This document shows positions 41,350-60,300 of a DNA stretch of 64,000 bases, one piece after another. The number at the start of each line of letters is the position of its first letter. Positions within the stretch are counted from its first letter, which is position 1. Source of the stretch: Stercorarius parasiticus. Taxonomy: Eukaryota > Chordata > Aves > Charadriiformes > Stercorariidae. The notes beneath the pieces were generated by a model. That model was not told the origin of the DNA and searched no databases. It worked only from the letters and a program-made list of their open reading frames with translations. The position numbers and the translations under genes are program-made. Where the stretch lies: assembly GCA_013396915.1 (NCBI GenBank), contig VWZL01000111.1:372880-436879 (forward strand), read 5' to 3'.

Positions 41350-41401
41350 GATTTTATGGAAGACCTTGGGTTATGGAGCAGAGGAAAGAACTTTTTAGAA
41401 G
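41350..41401 (+). CDS. OGA: OGA exon 2
   Basis: Fifty-two bases encode (G)[16 protein letters not shown] plus two bases. The acceptor is TTTCCTGTAG. The donor is GC (AGAAG|GCAAGT): AG plus A of the next exon gives Arg, then LQKW, so frame and homology fix the junction here. Confidence 0.95.
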
Positions 41402-44400: not shown

Positions 44401-47400
44401 TAAGAATATTATAAGGGAGAATCACTGTGTTCAGTGGTGTGGATTGTTGCAAGGAAAATTCAATTCAGTAGTTATGTTATCATCATTGTTAACTTGTTTA
44501 TCCCCTTACCAACCTAGTGGTTTGGTTCTGTTGCAGACCTTCTCTTTAACTTTAAAAAGATATATGTTCTGGTGTTAATATTTTTAGGTATTTGCACTTC
44601 ATAATCAGTCTTAGGGTTTCTAGTTCTCTTGTATTGTCTGCTGTAACTTTCCCTTCTATTCATGAACTTCATTAGGTTTTTTCCCGATTTTGACATTTGA
44701 GCAATTTTAATTAAATTCTCTATCTTTCCCTTCTGATCTTTATGCTAAGTATCATTCATAATGTCCTTTTTCTTTATACTTTATACTTTTAGGCCTTTGT
44801 TGGTTAATTTTATAGATGTTTCTCTTCTCACATGGTAGTATTCTGTCAATGCATTCATGAGACAGTTGGGTATGTTGTCACACATGTGGATTCTTCTACT
44901 AACAGCAACATTCTCTTTCCCTGTGCAGAGTACTGTGGAACTTTCTGTTATCCAAATGTTGCACAGTCGCCGTATTTACGGACTGTAGGAGAAAAGCTGC
45001 TCCCTGGCATTGAGGTGTTATGGACAGGTAGAAATTGTTTATTTTAGGGTTTTGTGGGTTGTTCGGTTGTGATTTTTTTTTTTAATTCACTGCTGGTGTT
45101 AAAAACAATTTCCCCTAAGTATTTAATAAAATAAACTGTCTGACTACGTGGGGGTTGAATCCTCAAGTATATGCAAAGCCCTCTGATTATCTTGTTTCCC
45201 TCTTAGGTCCGAAAGTTGTATCCAAAGACATTCCAGTAGAGTCCATTGAAGAAGTTTCTAAGATCATCAGGAGAGCACCAGTTATCTGGGATAACATTCA
45301 TGCTAATGATTATGATCAAAAGAGGCTTTTTCTTGGGCCGTACAAAGGTCGGTCAACTGAGCTCATCCCTCGACTAAAGGGAGTTCTGACCAATCCAAAC
45401 TGTGAATTTGAAGCCAATTATGTTGCTATTCACACACTTGCAACATGGTACAAGTCTAACATGAATGGGGTGAGAAAAGATGTGGTGATGAGTAAGTATG
45501 CTTAACTGTTTGCTGGGATTTATGTTTAACCATATAAGTCCTGCTGATTTTTACTTTTTTTAGTGATTCTAGCCTTTCCTTACCAACTCTCAGTTTAAGA
45601 TCACTTAGCATTTTCTATCCTGTAAGTAAATGGCAGTTGCCTGAAAAATTACAAGCATCTAGATTGTTTTATGGATTTCCTGGGAAGTATCTGTAGCATC
45701 TCTCTAGTCTTGAGAGATGTCTGTGGTTGTATAAAAATCACTCTCAGCAAGCAATTTTAATGTCCAAATTTGACATAAGTATCCGCAGACTTGATTTCAT
45801 TGGAATATAAGCAGTTCAGATCAAAAGAGAAACTGAATGTCAGAATATCTAGTTTCTGCATAATGTTTCTGTATTGACGTTGGTGGTGACCATAGTTTTC
45901 CATTTTGTCTCATTGGGATGTAATGCTTTGTCCTTCTTTGTGAAATAAGGCTGCTAGAGAGTTTTTGAATGCCTTGTCTAACGTGACTTTTTTATTATTA
46001 TTTTAAATGAAACTTGCATGATAACTTTTAAAAACTTGTCTCTGTAGCTGATACTGAAGACAGTACAGTTTCTATCCAGATTAAATTGGAAAATGAGGGG
46101 AGTGATGAAGATATTGAAACAGATGTTCTGTACAGCCCACAGATGGCCCTGAAGCTGGCCTTAACAGAATGGTTGCAGGAATTTGGGGTACCTCAGCAAT
46201 ACAGCAGTGAGTGTTGATTTTGTGGTATTCTGGGGTTGGTAGAAAAATGGGGTTAAATGTTGCATTTAGACTAAAAATGTTTTACAGATTCTGGCAATTT
46301 GTATACTTTTCAGTTAGAAGTATTTTCTGCCTTACTAACTGGGGAAGCCTTAATAAAGAAAGAAGAATGCTTGGCATTCTGCAGCGTGCCTGTAGTGCCC
46401 CGACTCATCAGCAGAAGCAACGTTGACATATGATCCTTTGGCGCTTATGACACAAGACAGGAAAGAGTCTGGATCTTGCTAGTCCCAGTTGTTACTAGAC
46501 TTCCGTGAGACTTAAGAGAATAAGAAGAATAGTCTTTTTTTTTTTTAAGTGGGTGTAAGATTATTGTAAACATTAGTTCTGCCTCAGAAGAGTCCGTATT
46601 CTTTCAGTTGTTTTAAGATGTCTTTATTTTTCTTAGTTTCTGTCTGTAGAAACCAGCTGGGTTCCTTCCAGCATTGTACACCTCTCGTGTAGCAATGGGA
46701 GCTTGGCGTCTGATGTAAAATCTGTTTTTCTCAAATGTACGTTGGCGGTGGTTGGGGTGCCCTTCTCTGATAACTGGTGGTGGAATGGAAGGAAGAACCT
46801 CTTCTGCACTAGAGCAGAGTTGTGAGGAGTTATCCTTTTGAACTGCTGTAGAGTTTCTGATCATTCTCAAACTCATTCTCAAACTCTGCAGCAAAAACAT
46901 GGGATGAGGAGTAGTAATTAAGGTGTCATCTTCCTTCATTTTCACCAAATAGTTTAGGTTGGAAAGGACCTCTTGAGATCTAGCCTAATGACCTTGCCCA
47001 AGGAGGGTGAGTTTAGGGCAGGTTGCCCAAGACCGTGTCCAGTCAGGTTTTGAATATCTCCATTTTCCCAAAAGATGTTTTTGCAGTTGAAATATTTAAG
47101 CATCAGTTCTTATGTTTTGAAGTGTGCTCTATATGCAAGTAAAACTTTCACAAGTCAGTTGATGCAGAGAAAAAAAAGTTAACTTTTAGAGCTTTTTATT
47201 CTGATGGCATAGTCAGAAATGCTGCTGGCTACACATAAATATTAACTGGTAAGCAAAGATAGGATGGGGAAAAAATTAGGAAAATTAGTTATGTGGAGGG
47301 GAAACTTGCAAAAAACAAAGTCAGTAGTTAGAATTACAATGACAAAAGAGAACAGGCAAAGTACCAAAAGGAAACTGTGCTGATCAGATGGTGTGGCAGC

Positions 47401-50400
47401 AGAATCATCCATGATTTGCAGAAGTTGCTGATTTGCAGGTTAGTTATTGAATGCATAGTTAGATATTGAAAACTCTAAACTTGTTTCTTCTTATTCTCAG
47501 GTAGGCAAGTGGCCCACAGTGGTGCTAAAACTACCGTAGGGGATGTAGGGCCTCTGGTGGCACCATCCTCTTTAAATGCAGCAACTGTGGTTACCACCGT
47601 TTACCAAGAACCCATCATGAGTCAGGGGGCAGCGCTGAGCAGTGAGTCACCAGCCTTGGTAAAGGAGGAAGAGAAGAAGCAATCTGATGAGGAACCAATG
47701 GACATGGTAGTGGAAAAACAAGAAGACTCAGACAAGAATGCTAATCAGATACTGACAGATATTGCCGAAGCCAAAATGGCAGAGGAGTTGAAGCCAATGG
47801 ATACCGATAAGGAGAGCATAGCTGAATCAAAGTCCCCGGAGATGTCTATGCAGGAAGACTCTGGTAGCGACATTGCCCCTATGCAGACTGATGAGCAAGT
47901 TAACAAAGAACAGTTTGTGCCCGGGCCAAATGAAAAGCCTCTCTACACAGTAGAACCAGTGACTTTAGAGGACTTGCAGCTTCTTGCTGACTTGTTTTAT
48001 CTTCCTTATGAACATGGGCCCAAAGGTGCACAGATGCTGAGAGAATTCCAGTGGCTCAGAGCAAATAGCAGTGTTGTCAGTGTTAATTGCAAAGGAAAGG
48101 ATGCTGAAAAAGTGAGTGTGAATTTATTTTTCTCTCCTTTTAAACCAAAATCCTGACCAATGTTATCTGTTGTCTGTAATAGAGATTGGTGTTCCACTTC
48201 CTAAAAGCTGAGGGTTAGTGTATAACTAACTGCAGGTCACAGTAACTTCCATTTCTCCATTGGAATCTACTGTTTTAAGCCCTGTAGGCCATGTAGCTAT
48301 GAAGGCGGTCTGGTGGCTGCATTTGACCAGTGATCCTGGACTGGCCTCACTTCTAACAGCCATAGAGAATACCCATGAGTCATGTGTGGTGTGGTAGTCC
48401 TTGCTGGTAAAATGGAGTAATGAATTGTATGGTCTTCTTCCATATTTAGAGTACCTCTCCTCCCTAGAAGGCTGTGTTTGATCTTGTGGATCTTTTGCCT
48501 CCGTTCATAGATAGAAGAATGGCGTAACCGAGCAGCCAAGTTTGAAGAGATGTGCAGCTTGGTGATGGGGATGTTCACTCGCCTCTCCAATTGTGCCAAC
48601 AGGACAATCCTTTATGACATGTACTCCTACGTCTGGGATATCAAGAGTATTATGTCAATGGTGAAATCTTTTGTGCAGTGGTTAGGTAGGTGCATTGGGA
48701 GCCATTATAATCCCAGATAGTGTATTTTTTTGTTTTTAATTAGCCCACGGGGAAAACGAAGTATTAGGCATTGGACGTGGGGTCTGATTTGACCCTATTT
48801 TAAAGGTTTTCCTGTCTCACTATTTGAAGCAATGCTTGCTGTGAATTTGCTTTGGTATTATAAGTGAAGTCTGCTGGATTCTTAAGATTGGAGACCTTGA
48901 TTTTCTTCTTGGGCTAATGAAACTTGAATCTCAGCTGACACGTAAGTGTTGACTTTAACTTACTCTTGACTGAATGCACACTGGACTATGCCATTTAACT
49001 CCTTGGATACCCTGCTGTATGATTGGAAATGACACTACGAAATGTGACCACATCAGCCATCTGCTGCTTGCTCTGTCTTGATAACATTATTGCTGTCTTC
49101 AACAGAACAATTGCAGAAGCGACCTTTCAATGGGCTTGGCCAAGAGGAAGCTGATCCTCCCAGCCCTGTGCGCATGCGAGCTTTAGCGTAAGGCTATTCT
49201 GGTGCAAAATAATTTCCTTTAAACACTTTCCAAATTGTTGATTTTTTTAATTTATTTTTTTTTATTATTTTTTGGTAATGGATGGAAATTGTGGAGCTCT
49301 CTAGACAGATTTAGTCTGAGACTTAAACTGATCTTGAAACATTTTTTTCTTGTTTGTCTTTTTTGTTTTTTTTAATGTGTGGCCTTTTTTTTGTTTGTTT
49401 TGTTTGTGGTGGTTTGTGTTTTTTTTTCCTGAAAGATTTTTGGGGGATCCTAAGTTGGCAGATAGCACCAGCATGGCCTGGGTAATTCTAGTGATGACAT
49501 TTCACTTTCAGGTTTTAATCCAACTCTAAGGAACATGCTGTGGACTTGCTTGACATACACAGCAGGCAGCAAAGCTGATGGTCTCATGTCACACTTTTTG
49601 TAGCTGTCGCAAACCTCACAGTGGTTAACCATTACACAACCTTGGTCTAGTTCCTAGTGTTTGGATTGTCTTTAAATGATAGTCTTAAACACTGGCAGGT
49701 TTAAGCAAGGACACAGAAGACCTGTTAAGTCATCAAGTCAGTCTGTGTTCAACAACTTTGTGTTTTGTGCTTATTAAAATATCAGATCCCTATATACATG
49801 GTTGATAAAGAAGAAGAGCTTTTAAGATTGCCTTCTGCAAAGTACAGAGAAGAAAACTAGCTTAGCAGGAAAACTTGTCACCATTGTAGTATGTTAACAT
49901 CTCTGCCTAACGCTGCTTAAAATCTTTAGTTCGTGCATTTTTAAGACTAGTGTGATGCAACTCCCCCAACTTTACTATTCTTGCTGTATGTTGACCTTTA
50001 GCTAGAAAGAGTGCTCTGTTTTTGATAACTTCATCTGTTTAAAACTCCAGGCCAAAGCTCTATAAAGAGAACAGTGATTCTTGTAATCTCAAAACATTGA
50101 GGGCTCAACTTAAGACTGCATTTCAGAATTACCAGACTACTTACTGATTTCAGCTGAAATTATTTTCAGTTTTCAATGTCCCTGTAAAGTTGGGTTCAAG
50201 TCTTTAAATGCATCAAATGTTGGGAATAGGTCACATTAGAAGCTAACTCTGCAAATACTAGGTCTGACTTTGGCAGTGTTCTGTTCCAGTCCTCAAACAG
50301 TATTAAATAGGTAAGAGTTCTTGACGGTTTAATACTCTTAGCTAATAGTGCTTCTGTGAGGGGGGGATGCTTTTGTCTTCACCTTGCAGTTTATCACTGG

Positions 50401-53400
50401 GGTAAATACATATATTGATAAAATACATCATTACATAAAGCTAAGTATGTTACAAATCCAAACAAATGGTGTGCTCAATGGTCCACTGAACATTCACTTT
50501 CTTCACCTCTCCTCCCAAGTCCAGCTAGCATTCAGTCCCTTAAATTAGTGTGGCTGTACAGTACTATGGATTACTAATGACTTCTATTGTCTTCTTCCCC
50601 ATTGTGTACAGATGGGAGAATCCTCAGCACAAGTTTCTACTGCTATTGGATGGACAGCGCCAGATGTTCACAGCGCGTCGTCATTAATTAATTAAAATGG
50701 AAAGGTTTTGTCTGTGAGGCAGCTCAGATAGATTAGATGTCCAATAGGCATGAACTGAAGTCACATTTGCGCAGCGACTAAGGCATTAACTATGTTTTTC
50801 ATTTATACAGCTCTTCATTCACACAGCTCTTTATTGTAATAATTGGAAGTGCTAGTTAAGTTGTAGTCTCAAAGGACAGACAGATACTGTCTTCCAAGTT
50901 ATTGACTAAGTCTCCTTGCAAAGGGTATCTTTTGACTTGAGAATTCTAAAATGTGGGAGTAAACCAAATTCAATTTCTGATGCTTGGATTGTTTCTGAAA
51001 TTTACCATACTTTGGGTAGTTTGTAATTAACATATATTCCTAAATTCTCATAAATGTCAGACTTGGCACACTTTGGGACTCTCTGACTAGCACAACATAC
51101 TTGTCTGTACTGATCTGAGACTGTTACTTGAACAGGAGGTAGATTGCTGTCCACAAAAGGAAAAGAGTATTTGCGCTGCTCATCTTGTCAGAAAACTAGG
51201 CGGGTAATTGAAATCTCCACTCCAGATACTGTGCTGCTTTTTTTTTTTCTTTCTCCTCCAGAGTTGTCACTTATGTTATTGTAGTTGTTGAAGGCTGTAG
51301 TGCCTTGCTGGCAGAACAGTATTAAAAGTCAAACAGCTAATGGAAGTGTATTTTCTAAAGCAAGCATACACTAAAGCTGAGCACTCCAATGGGTCTGCTG
51401 TGGCTGGTTGATCGGTGGGGACCCTGGTGCATCTGATATGCTTGAGGAGGAAAAAAATCAAGATGCTAAAAAGCAAAGCTAGTATTCTCTGTGACCAACA
51501 AGGTGTACTAGTTAAATTGTGAGTTAATTCCAGTTGATATTACTTGCTTTTCAACATGCCAGCAGCATTGTGAACATACGGCCTGGATTAAGTAAATCTG
51601 CATGGTCTCTTGCAAGAATACTGTTTCATACAACTGTCATGACTGCCTGAACTGTTCCAGGCTGTTTGCATATGTTGCCAGTCCTAGTTTTCTGACAAGA
51701 TTAGAAACAATCATTACTAAAATGTGACTTCAGAAAGGTCCATTTTTTTTCAAGGGGCTGTGATAATGGCATTTGTTTGATCTAAAATTTACGATAGTAG
51801 CTATTGAGCCATATAGCTTCCAAGATGTCATCTTTTCATAGATTAAATGGATGTTTCTGCCACAAATATACAAAGAAAAAAAAAGTACAAAATGTCTGGG
51901 AAGCTTACGTAATTGTGAATGGCACCATTCTTGTGCCTTCTGGTATGGAATGAGGTGTATTAGCTGAATCACCTCTCCTGTACTTAAACTAGTCTGTTAC
52001 AGGTAATCAAGAATTTGGAGTACCGCAATTAGCGTGCAAGCACAAAATCTTTATAAATCATACATTATTACAGCCTCCCCCCAAGCCCTGGATTCTAGCT
52101 CAGTTAGAGAGCTTTTTCCACAAGTGTGTGTTAGCTTTTTGGACATGTTAGACACCCAGGAAATCCCCCTTCTCGTAACATTCTCCGCTTGGATCTGATC
52201 TCAACAGGGTGTCGTAGTCAATCTTCAGCACAGTTCTTAAGTGGAGACCAAGAACCCTGGGCCTTTAGAGGTGGTCTAGCAGGAGAGTTCCAGGTATCAA
52301 TATGACTTCACAACTGAATGACATTTTCTTTGTTTTATGAGAAACCTTTTGTTGCACATCAGAGGTCTGGAAGGATTGGTCTGCCGAAGGCTTTCTGGTC
52401 CAAGGCCCATTAGCCTTACAGCTTGTTTTAAAATAATTTTCCTCCCCTCTCTACAGTAATTTCTCAAGGAGATGCTGCCTGTCCCACGCGCATGCGAAGC
52501 GCAGCGGCTTTAGTTGTACATTTCACATTGTTTCTTTGCAGGTCGCACAGCATTTTTATCTGCGCCCGCAATTGCACAATGCGCGCATGCTTGTCTGCCG
52601 ATGGGAATTCCATGAGCAAAAGCGATAGTCATCCAAATTTTGGTTTCTGTCTAAATGAAGCTGTAATGCGCTTTGTTGCAAAGATTTCAATTGGCAAATA
52701 TTCTTAAATTGCTGTTTATACCATGTTCAAATTTGTTCATGGATTTTTCAGGCGCTATACTTTTCCCCCCTCACAGGTGCTCTGCGCGCAGCAAATTGAA
52801 TCAGCGCATTGCTTTTGGGATAAAGCGTCTCCTCTGGCCAGTTAACCCTCTTCAGACCAAACCTTTCCTCCTGACATTCTATGTTCTTATACAGAGACAG
52901 TGTAGATATGATTGGTAAAAAGTATTTTAAAGCAGATAAGATTAACAGACTCTTAATGTGCTGTTTCAATTGCATATTTTAAAACACCAATTGGATATTT
53001 TCTATTCAAGTAAGGTCTTTGCATTTGTAAAGCATACCAACCCCACCTTCTTCTGGGGTGCCTGCAAGTAGCAAATGTTAATTTGGGAGTCTGCAGTGCA
53101 CACCCAAGAGTGATGGGTTTTGTTGTTCATACAGTCATATGAAGTATTTTGTTTTCACAGCGTTTGCTGCCTATTGATGGGGCAAATGACCTCTTTTTTC
53201 AACCACCTCCATTAACGCCCACTTCCAAAGTGTACACCATACGACCCTACTTTCCTAAAGATGAGGTAACTGCTTTTGACGCTTTTTTTGACATCGATGT
53301 TGTTGTTAGTGATGCGTTTCCTTTTGTGGCAACACTGGTTATTGCTGAGTCCCTTCATTCCCTAATGAAATGGGTGTCCCAGTATATTGGGTAAGGCACA

Positions 53401-59400: not shown

Positions 59401-60300
59401 GAATTCCGTGTTTCCTAATTATATGCTGGTTCTAGGATGCAAGGCAAACTTCGGATGGTTATATTAACACTACTGTGTTTGCCTGTCAGCCTGAGATATT
59501 AAACTTCTGCCATAGTTGGCAATCTAGATTTAGGTAAATAATTATAAAAGCTTTTGGATAGCTAACTTCTGCTGCTGTCTTCAGTAAGAGGTAGCTTTTC
59601 ACTTTAGCCATTATCTTGCAAATTAGAAAATAGGAAGAACTAAGGGAGCAATTTGGCAATGAGAGCACACATTTTTACATCTTGAACAACGCAGAAATGT
59701 TTGTATTTCTCCTACTGGCATTGGTAATGATGCTTTTTCTTATGTGTGGCAGTGTGCACTGGTGGGTAATTACCAAAACCTTCAATATGGGGAAGTAGTT
59801 GGCTGTCTTCCTTACTGCGCACCTGAGGTTCACAGTTCCTTTGGGCGATTTGGTGCCTGCTTCTAGTGCTATTTTCTGAGCCAACATCAGAGTTTCAGGA
59901 TGCTTTTATGTGAAATAAAAGGTGTGCAGAGGGGAGGTGATTTGTTCAGACTGACAAGACATCTGCAATGTGCAACTGACCCCAATGGTCAGCTATGTTG
60001 CCATACATCTACTGTCTTTTGGGCACTATACTCCATATGGAATTGGATCAGTGGTTTCATTGGGTTTAAATGCTAAAATAGGTGGAAACTCTAGTAATAT
60101 TTGATGTCTGTGCTTTTTACAATCACTCTTCTACAGTGTTTTGTTTCTCTCTTCCTTCTTCAGGCTCCCGTGGGGCTTTTTGTGAAGTAAGACCAGATGA
60201 TAAAAGAATCCTGGAATTTTACAGCAAGCTGGGTTGTTTTGAAATTGCTAAAATGGAAGGATTTCCAAAGGATGTTGTTATCCTTGGAAGAAGCCTGTGA
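41350..60300 (+). CDS. OGA: OGA gene, protein O-GlcNAcase (coding span, exons 2-16)
   Basis: OGA (MGEA5, GH84) removes O-linked N-acetylglucosamine from Ser/Thr of nuclear and cytoplasmic proteins by substrate-assisted catalysis. The 15 visible exons encode 849 residues in one frame. They comprise the catalytic TIM barrel starting [16 protein letters not shown], with the catalytic aspartate pair in LLFDDIDHN and substrate-site residues in [16 protein letters not shown]; an acidic disordered linker (exon 9); a helical stalk (end of exon 9 and exons 10-11); and a C-terminal acetyltransferase-like domain (exons 12-16), ending [10 protein letters not shown]. Identity to human OGA, from memory, is very high, and the exon count (16 with exon 1) is the same. 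Only exon 1 is missing, in the N gap. The intron 2 donor is GC. Candidate alternative 3' ends lie in introns 10 and 11. Confidence 0.97.
41699..41796 (+). CDS. OGA: OGA exon 3
   Basis: Ninety-eight bases: [20 protein letters not shown], then [12 protein letters not shown]. It contains the YAPKDD substrate-site loop. Acceptor GTTTATAG, donor GTAATT. Confidence 0.95.
41797..42902. other. OGA: OGA intron 3 with CR1 fragment
   Basis: AT-rich intron. Its only recognised content is the CR1 3' end at 42525-42707 and a T-run near 42785. Confidence 0.8.
42525..42707 (+). mobile_element. CR1 LINE 3' fragment (sense)
   Basis: The sequence GGCAGAGCACTGGAACAGGC … GAGGTGGTGGAGTCTCCGTC … GGTTGGACTAGATGATCTCC … CCTTCCAACCCC followed by ATTCTGTGATTCC is the characteristic CR1 3' region of birds. 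It is truncated 5', as usual for these elements. Confidence 0.92.
42903..43033 (+). CDS. OGA: OGA exon 4
   Basis: One hundred and thirty-one bases: (E)[17 protein letters not shown] … [13 protein letters not shown] … LKRKLDQ. Acceptor GATTTCCAG, donor GTAAGT. Confidence 0.95.
43712..43883 (+). CDS. OGA: OGA exon 5 with catalytic Asp pair
   Basis: One hundred and seventy-two bases encode [20 protein letters not shown] … [17 protein letters not shown]. The two consecutive Asp in LFDDID correspond to human D174/D175, the residues that assist the acetamido nucleophile and act as acid/base. Acceptor TTGTATCAG, donor GTAAAA. Confidence 0.96.
43884..44928. other. OGA: OGA intron 5
   Basis: AT-rich intron with no recognised repeat, RNA gene or additional exon. 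Confidence 0.7.
44929..45027 (+). CDS. OGA: OGA exon 6
   Basis: Ninety-nine bases: (E)[17 protein letters not shown] … PGIEVLWT. The barrel strand EVLWTGP ends at this junction. Acceptor CCCTGTGCAG, donor GTAGAA. Confidence 0.95.
45207..45491 (+). CDS. OGA: OGA exon 7
   Basis: Two hundred and eighty-five bases encode (G)[16 protein letters not shown] … [19 protein letters not shown] … [19 protein letters not shown] … KDVVM. It includes the WDN…NDYD active-site residues (human N280, D285 region). Acceptor TCCCTCTTAG, donor GTAAGT. Confidence 0.96.
46048..46206 (+). CDS. OGA: OGA exon 8
   Basis: One hundred and fifty-nine bases: (T)[19 protein letters not shown] … [20 protein letters not shown]. 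Acceptor GTCTCTGTAG, donor GTGAGT. It ends the catalytic half. Confidence 0.95.
46207..47500. other. OGA: OGA intron 8 with reverse CR1 fragment
   Basis: AT-rich intron. It contains a CR1 remnant in reverse orientation (46948-47062). No other feature is seen. Confidence 0.75.
46948..47062 (-). mobile_element. CR1 LINE fragment (antisense)
   Basis: GTTTAGGTTGGAAAGGACCT … GGCAGGTTGCCCAAGACCGT … GTCCAGTCAGGTTTTGAAT is the reverse complement of the CR1 3' region. It is diverged and shorter than the copy at 42.5 kb. Confidence 0.85.
47501..48111 (+). CDS. OGA: OGA exon 9, disordered linker and start of stalk
   Basis: The 611-base exon encodes an acidic, low-complexity linker (repeated [38 protein letters not shown]), then the ordered stalk start [20 protein letters not shown]. 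The stalk helices mediate dimerisation in human OGA. The human caspase-3 site region (AKASVVDG) is here AKTTVGDV. Acceptor TTCTTATTCTCAG, donor GTGAGT, phase 0 at the end. Confidence 0.96.
48511..48685 (+). CDS. OGA: OGA exon 10, stalk
   Basis: One hundred and seventy-five bases: [20 protein letters not shown] … [20 protein letters not shown] … KSFVQWL, plus one base. Acceptor CCGTTCATAG, donor GTAGGT. It leaves in phase 1. Three alternative continuations are possible: exon 11 (52208), the novel exon 10a (49106) or intron retention. Confidence 0.96.
48686..48721 (+). CDS. OGA: OGA intron 10 read-through tail (short isoform)
   Basis: If intron 10 is not spliced, exon 10 continues in frame as [11 protein letters not shown] and stops at TAG (48718-48720). 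Human OGA-S, which lacks the acetyltransferase-like domain, is known to arise by retention of intron 10 with a short unique tail. The exon number and position here match. Whether this bird uses the form is inference. Confidence 0.45.
49106..49187 (+). CDS. OGA: Candidate OGA alternative exon 10a
   Basis: The acceptor TTGCTGTCTTCAACAG is followed by 82 bases, then donor AGC|GTAAGG. Entered from exon 10 (one base G), it reads [21 protein letters not shown] and VRMRAL with two bases left over, all open. The residues are polar and protein-like, and the segment is richer in GC/CpG than the surrounding intron. It cannot rejoin exon 11 in frame but does join 50612 in frame. I do not recognise the peptide from any family. 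Without transcript data this remains a prediction. Confidence 0.5.
50612..50687 (+). CDS. OGA: Candidate OGA alternative terminal exon 10b
   Basis: A very strong acceptor (CTATTGTCTTCTTCCCCATTGTGTACAG; long pyrimidine tract) precedes an open segment. With GC from exon 10a it reads [22 protein letters not shown], then RRH and TAA. ATTAAA, a variant polyadenylation signal, follows four bases after the stop. Together with 10a it gives a tail of about 52 residues replacing everything from exon 11 on. No homology is recognised. Confidence 0.45.
52208..52293 (+). CDS. OGA: OGA exon 11
   Basis: Eighty-six bases: (G)[19 protein letters not shown], then RGGLAGEFQ. This ends the stalk and begins the link to the C-terminal domain. 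The acceptor GATCTCAACAG has a poor pyrimidine tract, compatible with the regulated use of intron 10. Donor GTATCA is also weak. Confidence 0.95.
52294..53160. other. OGA: OGA intron 11 with CpG-rich open island
   Basis: Within AT-rich sequence, 52456-52830 is unusually rich in GCGC words and in one frame stays open from an acceptor at 52456 to a stop near 52707 (see findings). Otherwise nothing is recognised. Confidence 0.65.
53161..53265 (+). CDS. OGA: OGA exon 12
   Basis: One hundred and five bases, 35 codons: [20 protein letters not shown] … [11 protein letters not shown]. It starts the acetyltransferase-like (GNAT-fold) domain. Acceptor GTTTTCACAG, donor GTAACT, phase 0 on both sides. 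Confidence 0.96.
53266..54876. other. OGA: OGA intron 12
   Basis: AT-rich intron. A stretch at about 53395-53460 (CTAAGGTTAAGTGACTTGCC…) resembles an antisense MIR-type SINE core. Nothing else is recognised. Confidence 0.6.
53395..53460 (-). repeat. Possible MIR-type SINE remnant (antisense)
   Basis: AAACTAAGGTTAAGTGACTT followed by GCCTGTGGTTCAGCAGC resembles the reverse complement of the MIR core (GGTCACACAGC preceded by AAGTGACTTGCCCA). It is old and diverged. Confidence 0.4.
54877..54962 (+). CDS. OGA: OGA exon 13
   Basis: Eighty-six bases: [20 protein letters not shown], then SLPDLIGD plus AA. The segment [12 protein letters not shown] differs from human DGVGLPFQSQPD. Acceptor CTCCTCTTAG, donor GTATGT. 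Confidence 0.95.
54963..55918. other. OGA: OGA intron 13
   Basis: AT-rich, with T-run/A-run palindromes near 55177-55198 and 55435-55456 and a 44-codon A-rich open stretch from 55535 (see findings). No repeat family is recognised. Confidence 0.65.
55919..56111 (+). CDS. OGA: OGA exon 14
   Basis: One hundred and ninety-three bases: (K)[19 protein letters not shown] … [19 protein letters not shown] … [20 protein letters not shown]…GICGYALG forms the core strands of the GNAT-like fold. Acceptor TTTCTGCAG, donor GTTAGT. Phase 0 at the end. Confidence 0.96.
56112..59222. other. OGA: OGA intron 14
   Basis: A 3.1-kb AT-rich intron. It contains a perfect 29-base tandem duplication (56186-56246) and a candidate in-frame 15-base microexon (59081-59095). 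No mobile element is recognised. Confidence 0.7.
56186..56246. repeat. Perfect 29-base tandem duplication
   Basis: GAGCTTCTGTGCCATTCAG and flanking bases are repeated exactly with a 29-base period (56192 and 56221). The lack of differences suggests a recent duplication or an assembly artefact. Confidence 0.9.
59223..59382 (+). CDS. OGA: OGA exon 15
   Basis: One hundred and sixty bases: [20 protein letters not shown] … [19 protein letters not shown], plus one base. Acceptor ATCCTTTTCAG, donor GTAAGC. Confidence 0.96.
60164..60300 (+). CDS. OGA: OGA exon 16, C-terminus
   Basis: One hundred and thirty-seven bases: (G)[19 protein letters not shown] … [16 protein letters not shown], stop TGA. 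The residues closely match the human C-terminus. Acceptor CTTCCTTCTTCAG. Confidence 0.97.

Follow-up and report, generated by a model that had tools for sequence, protein, structure and literature searches.

OGA is the enzyme that removes O-linked N-acetylglucosamine (O-GlcNAc) in animals, and a short form of it, OGA-S, has reduced activity and a mitochondrial, nuclear or lipid-droplet location. The short OGA described so far, with its lower activity and other location, is mammalian and arises by reading into an intron, which we take to be the one after exon 10, where the database ends P0039 and P0048 also place it. Here we analyse the OGA gene of Stercorarius parasiticus within a stretch of 64,000 nucleotides (contig VWZL01000111.1, positions 372,880 to 436,879; hereafter the window), and in particular a segment at position 50612, inside the intron after exon 10, which very likely acts as an alternative last exon and yields a short OGA by another route. 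The evidence consists of the window DNA of this one bird and of sequences in a protein database.

Three described systems are relevant. According to the available passages of PMC9180253, OGA-S lacks the HAT domain and ends on an intron-derived tail of 15 residues that is reported to direct it to mitochondria; the available part of PMC12775002 adds that it lacks a stalk helix acting in trans and has about 5% of the activity of OGA-L. The second is OGT: detention of its intron 4 requires a decoy exon whose 5' splice sites are weak, and intron detention is reported to regulate OGA as well, in the opposite direction to OGT (both from the passages available of PMC12017769). The third is the OGA of fishes, in which database sequences contain an additional in-frame cassette between exons 10 and 11.

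An OGA exon in the intron after exon 10

OGA lies on the + strand of the window, and the intron after exon 10 (48686-52207) holds both of the segments that a preliminary description of this DNA had proposed as new exons. These were 49106-49187 and 50612-50687, spliced in that order after exon 10 so that a tail of 52 residues, ending in MFTARRH, would replace the acetyltransferase-like domain. The features first needed are as follows.

48511..48685, + strand: OGA exon 10 (numbering of the preliminary description), ending in phase 1 (..SFVQWL + G) with donor TAG|GTAGGT; placed by tblastn and junction check
50612..50691, + strand: predicted coding part of the alternative last exon, by direct splice to exon 10; 26 residues + TAA (50689-50691); protein P0016 ends on the same tail
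52208..52293, + strand: canonical exon 11, which the alternative last exon would not reach; placed by tblastn and junction check

Much of the earlier proposal is borne out by the letters themselves. Splice sites are present at 49106 (CTTCAACAG|AACAA), 49187 (AGC|GTAAGG) and 50612 (TGTACAG|ATGGG), entry from exon 10, which ends at 48685, is in phase 1, and the two segments join in an open frame that reaches TAA at 50685-50687 after the 52-residue tail as described. The acceptor at 50612 scores 5.0 bits, within the range of real acceptors. The open frame behind it says little by itself: among the 143 other acceptors in the introns that match or exceed its strength, 34 are followed by at least 25 open codons in the same phase.

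When 156 OGA proteins were compared with the intron by tblastn, the second segment was matched with expectation values (E) down to 3e-13, in a frame that differs from the one proposed. At 50611, 39 proteins follow the frame given by direct splicing from exon 10 (DGRI...), which stops at TAA 50689-50691, and one, P0023, follows the frame claimed earlier, which stops at TAA 50685-50687. By these sequence comparisons the 50612 segment is a real, ancient OGA exon, and it most likely joins exon 10 with no other exon between them and is translated in the DGRI frame. The tail proposed earlier most likely combined the right exon with the wrong frame and one exon too many; the idea that OGA gains a new C-terminus in place of the acetyltransferase-like domain survives for the exon at 50612, while the membership of 49106-49187 and the claimed frame do not. 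A call of an exon from raw sequence can, in other words, be correct while its frame is wrong.

Relatives were sought in a protein database clustered at 90% identity, within whose clusters isoforms may hide. The last 247 residues of the two-exon isoform retrieved 498 proteins at E <= 0.001, covering vertebrate OGA, and FVQWL followed by DGRI occurs in three of the 120 matches listed from these 498 (P0016, P0090 and P0111). All 39 candidates obtained at E <= 10 with the DGRI tail carry the exon: 37 are fish (33 ray-finned, four elasmobranch) with the exon between exons 10 and 11, and two are sauropsids with the exon C-terminal. Over the cassette, identity with the window is 16/18 in zebrafish, 14/18 in gar and 12/18 in shark. 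The insert of the cod protein P0146 is shorter than in other fish.

P0016 ends on the DGRI tail, identical to that of the window at 25 of 26 residues. It is a protein of 507 amino acids in a cluster of five sequences, drawn from ENA and from a single contig of 1,727 nt. Over residues 1-480 it shares 99.8% identity with peafowl P0017 and 99.6% with quail P0022, for which reason we take it for galliform. In the window its 507 codons, introns included, would occupy about 7 kb, and a source of 1,727 nt was therefore probably spliced RNA or its complementary DNA (cDNA). A protein bearing the bird-type tail is already in public databases. A paper on chicken bursal cDNAs was weighed as the source of P0016, and the portion of it available offers no link. 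In the literature searched, as far as its available passages go, no description of a bird isoform with the DGRI tail was found, and the zebrafish passages concern ogt isoforms, not oga isoforms.

Among squamates, the cobra protein P0090 (Naja naja) has the same tail, with 22 of 26 residues identical to the window. The one protein in the frame claimed earlier, P0023, is a hypothetical protein of a lizard; it is identical to the window at 16 of 21 residues and enters the exon without the first segment. Its peptide and that of the cobra are compatible at all 21 codon positions compared, and the two may accordingly represent two frames of like DNA. Another alternative end was also seen: P0089, which looks mammalian by eye, and P0100 of the frog Leptobrachium end in FVQWLAFA[AS][NY] after exon 10. 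No acceptor leading to an AFA[AS][NY] end was found in this intron of the window.

Relation to the in-frame cassette of fish

The bird exon agrees with fish OGA that carries an 18-residue insert (zebrafish P0122, Betta P0121, bamboo shark P0111) in being an orthologous exon with the same position, entry phase and frame. Most of the fish inserts have 18 residues and are entered and left in phase 1, with an exon end that would correspond to 50665 in the window; 50612-50665 matches the 37 fish proteins in frame, in position and in phase-1 entry. If 50665 were joined to exon 11 at 52208, the product would read R-W-C-R, like fish. Unlike the fish protein, in which exon 11 and the pHAT domain follow, the bird sequence has a decayed donor and a frame that ends in TAA.

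50612..50665, + strand: orthologue of the fish cassette, 54 nt, in frame; 18 residues + first base of the next codon; from the fish protein matches
50666..50671, + strand: old cassette donor, GAT|GTTCAC; GT kept, remainder decayed, -4.4 bits
50691..50696, + strand: putative poly(A) signal, an ATTAAA hexamer overlapping the stop and followed by GT-rich GGTTTTGTCTGTG

Fourteen real OGA donors, one of them a GC donor, score from 3.9 to 12.6 bits; at -4.4 bits the site at 50666 falls below the weakest of them, and the window has no usable donor for a cassette of the fish type. The sequence shows the 50612 exon to descend from the cassette that lies in frame between exons 10 and 11 of fish, within the stalk domain. 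With its 5' splice site decayed in the bird, the exon, once joined to exon 10, would hardly be able to pass on to exon 11; the frame continues through CSQRVVIN to TAA, and the ATTAAA lying on the stop may serve in polyadenylation. The decayed donor, the frame running to TAA and the ATTAAA are what lead us to read it as an alternative last exon. It is very likely, in our judgement, that OGA has at 50612 an alternative last exon, descended from the in-frame cassette of fish, and that this exon yields a short OGA without pHAT.

Several points weigh against this. P0016 is the only avian-type protein with the junction of exon 10 to 50612, and its species is assigned by similarity. The 39 candidates found with the DGRI tail include no other bird, turtle, crocodile, amphibian or mammal, in a database whose clustering may hide isoforms. 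The gene model behind P0090 is partial and reads past the position of the window's stop codon (..VVINKFKMG) to end a few codons later. Finally, the composition-corrected codon score in the DGRI frame is equalled by 23% of intronic and 37% of upstream windows matched for guanine-cytosine (GC) content.

The state of the donor also bears on two other readings. The exon might now serve mainly as a poison or decoy exon, which the spliceosome recognises yet seldom splices, and in this way aid intron retention, as has been proposed for the decoy exon of OGT intron 4. Its acceptor in the real range beside a ruined donor is in keeping with this, as is its position in the very intron that OGA-S-type ends (P0039, P0048) read into, and both the detention of OGA introns and the OGT precedent are on record in the available passages of PMC12017769. 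The bird element is like the decoy exon of OGT in being exon-like, with a poor donor, in an intron of a gene of O-GlcNAc cycling; it differs in keeping a conserved reading frame. That conservation counts against a decoy, the residues past the old donor (CSQRVVIN) being the same in cobra P0090 at seven of eight positions, and so does the cDNA-like galliform sequence that ends with the exon. A mainly decoy function is on balance unlikely, though a decoy role and a role as alternative last exon are compatible.

The same loss of the donor could mark a dying fossil of the fish cassette, with no present use and with P0016 the outcome of rare mis-splicing, and among the 39 candidates no tetrapod protein has the cassette between exons 10 and 11. 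Identities of 22/26 between bird and cobra and of 16/18 with zebrafish are, however, not what a neutral intron would be expected to keep over such divergence times. Because the conservation between bird and cobra extends past the old donor, we consider a fossil quite improbable and prefer an alternative last exon.

The segment at 49106-49187

49106..49187, + strand: first segment of the preliminary description, 82 nt; an open pseudo-exon without support as an exon

The isoform proposed earlier (exon 10 to 49106-49187 to 50612-50687) has in its favour that splice dinucleotides, phase and open frame are all present and that its splice-site scores lie within the range of real OGA sites, those of the first segment being 6.9 bits for the acceptor and 5.3 bits for the donor. 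Pseudo-exons as good nevertheless arise at chance frequency. Over 14 OGA introns (16,402 bp) we counted pairs of sites that are at least as strong, lie 50-250 nt from each other and leave the required phase open; there are three on the + strand, 49106-49187 included, and five on the - strand. About 0.9 such pairs per strand are expected in an intron of the length of 48686-52207 (0.75 when the first segment is excluded).

Judged by its raw codon score, the first segment at first seemed strong: of 6,117 stop-free intron windows 0.18% reach that score, which puts it in the top 0.2%, and it surpasses each of 27 windows from real OGA exons. Once GC content is matched, however, the score is not significant. 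After correction for composition, 3.0% of all OGA intron windows score as high; among windows matched for GC the share is 13.8% for intronic and 15.6% for upstream ones. The segment still exceeds 20 of 25 real OGA exon windows after correction, which may be read in its favour and equally marks the corrected score as a weak test. CpG dinucleotides are kept in both segments, with three in the 82 nt of the first and four in the 76 nt of 50612-50687, numbers reached by 3.6% and 1.6% of intronic windows respectively; this retention was spotted post hoc and is a hint only. The first segment has one match in its own 1.14-Gb genome and is not an evident repeat.

Protein comparisons do not bear the segment out as an OGA exon. 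None of the 156 collected OGA proteins matches it at E <= 0.05 by tblastn onto the intron. A database search with the new peptide had been suggested with the original proposal; in its OGA context the 52-residue tail gave nine candidates, none at E <= 10, in a database where clustering at 90% could hide an isoform. Against PDB sequences and Pfam the tail fell into no family, the one match having E 0.11 with no stretch passing alone. P0023 does read the second exon in the frame of the two-exon isoform, but 39 proteins differ from it in frame and P0023 itself skips the first segment. As an exon, 49106-49187 has no support: it is explained as a pseudo-exon that arose by chance, and the isoform does not need it. 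We hold the two-exon isoform to be very improbable. The segment might instead act as a frame switch, its skipping giving the DGRI tail and its inclusion the 52-residue tail, so that one exon would supply two ends of OGA in birds; we give this very little credence, and favour direct splicing of exon 10 to 50612.

Likely product and comparison with OGA-S

Zebrafish residues 526-713, insert included, align to the 170-residue human chain 535-704 of 11lj, and the border of exons 10 and 11 therefore lies in the stalk. The predicted product would comprise the catalytic domain, most of the stalk and the 26-residue tail; the last part of the stalk would be missing, as would pHAT. In the AlphaFold models of Naja P0090 and zebrafish P0122 the mean predicted local distance difference test (pLDDT) scores were 41.6 and 37.2, too low for the models to be of use.

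Like mammalian OGA-S, the bird product would end after the same exon, losing the stalk end and pHAT and gaining a short unique tail: in the direct frame TAA at 50689-50691 precedes exon 11, and P0016 stops there. Unlike OGA-S, whose 15 residues come from intron read-through, the bird tail would be spliced from 50612 and has 26 residues, and retention of the intron in the window would give 11 residues.

48686..48720, + strand: start of the intron; if retained, the frame gives 11 residues and then a stop, by translation; counterpart of the OGA-S end

Only GRC is common to this retained-intron frame and the retained-intron-type ends P0039 and P0048. By analogy, the bird product probably works like OGA-S though made differently. 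If this is true, birds and squamates may reach an equivalent short OGA through an ancient in-frame cassette turned into a terminal exon, and the role of short OGA would become testable by comparison across lineages.

The OGA locus and minor observations

With an OGA probe, tblastn and splice-site checks, 15 OGA coding exons were placed, from 41350-41401 to 60164-60300, and their joined translation is intact through the last of them. The first coding exon was not found by the probe in the window, which has an N stretch; most of its 649 N appear at around 36.7-37.4 kb, probably over that exon. Among the open reading frames (ORFs) of the window, ORFs with EF-hands precede OGA at about 30-32 kb; we take them for KCNIP2. 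The OGA exon at 41350-41401 has a GC donor at 41401 (AAG|GCAAGT), making its intron a GC-AG intron.

Rfam over 48000-53000 returned a sole match, at 52796-52877, whose 18.5 bits fall short of the gathering score of 45, and a search of viral and GTDB contigs for vertebrate DNA of the 48686-52207 intron gave no confirmed match. CpG-dense patches lie within OGA introns at 46341-46788 and 52415-52868, the former overlapping a minus-strand ORF of 111 aa at 46613-46948. Exon 11 has a possible 5' extension, 52160-52207, which adds 15 residues in frame and has a counterpart (NPP[SI]...) in the squamate proteins P0092 and P0023; the acceptor that would produce it, CACCCAG|G at 52160, scores a weak 2.5 bits and may be an alternative 3' splice site.

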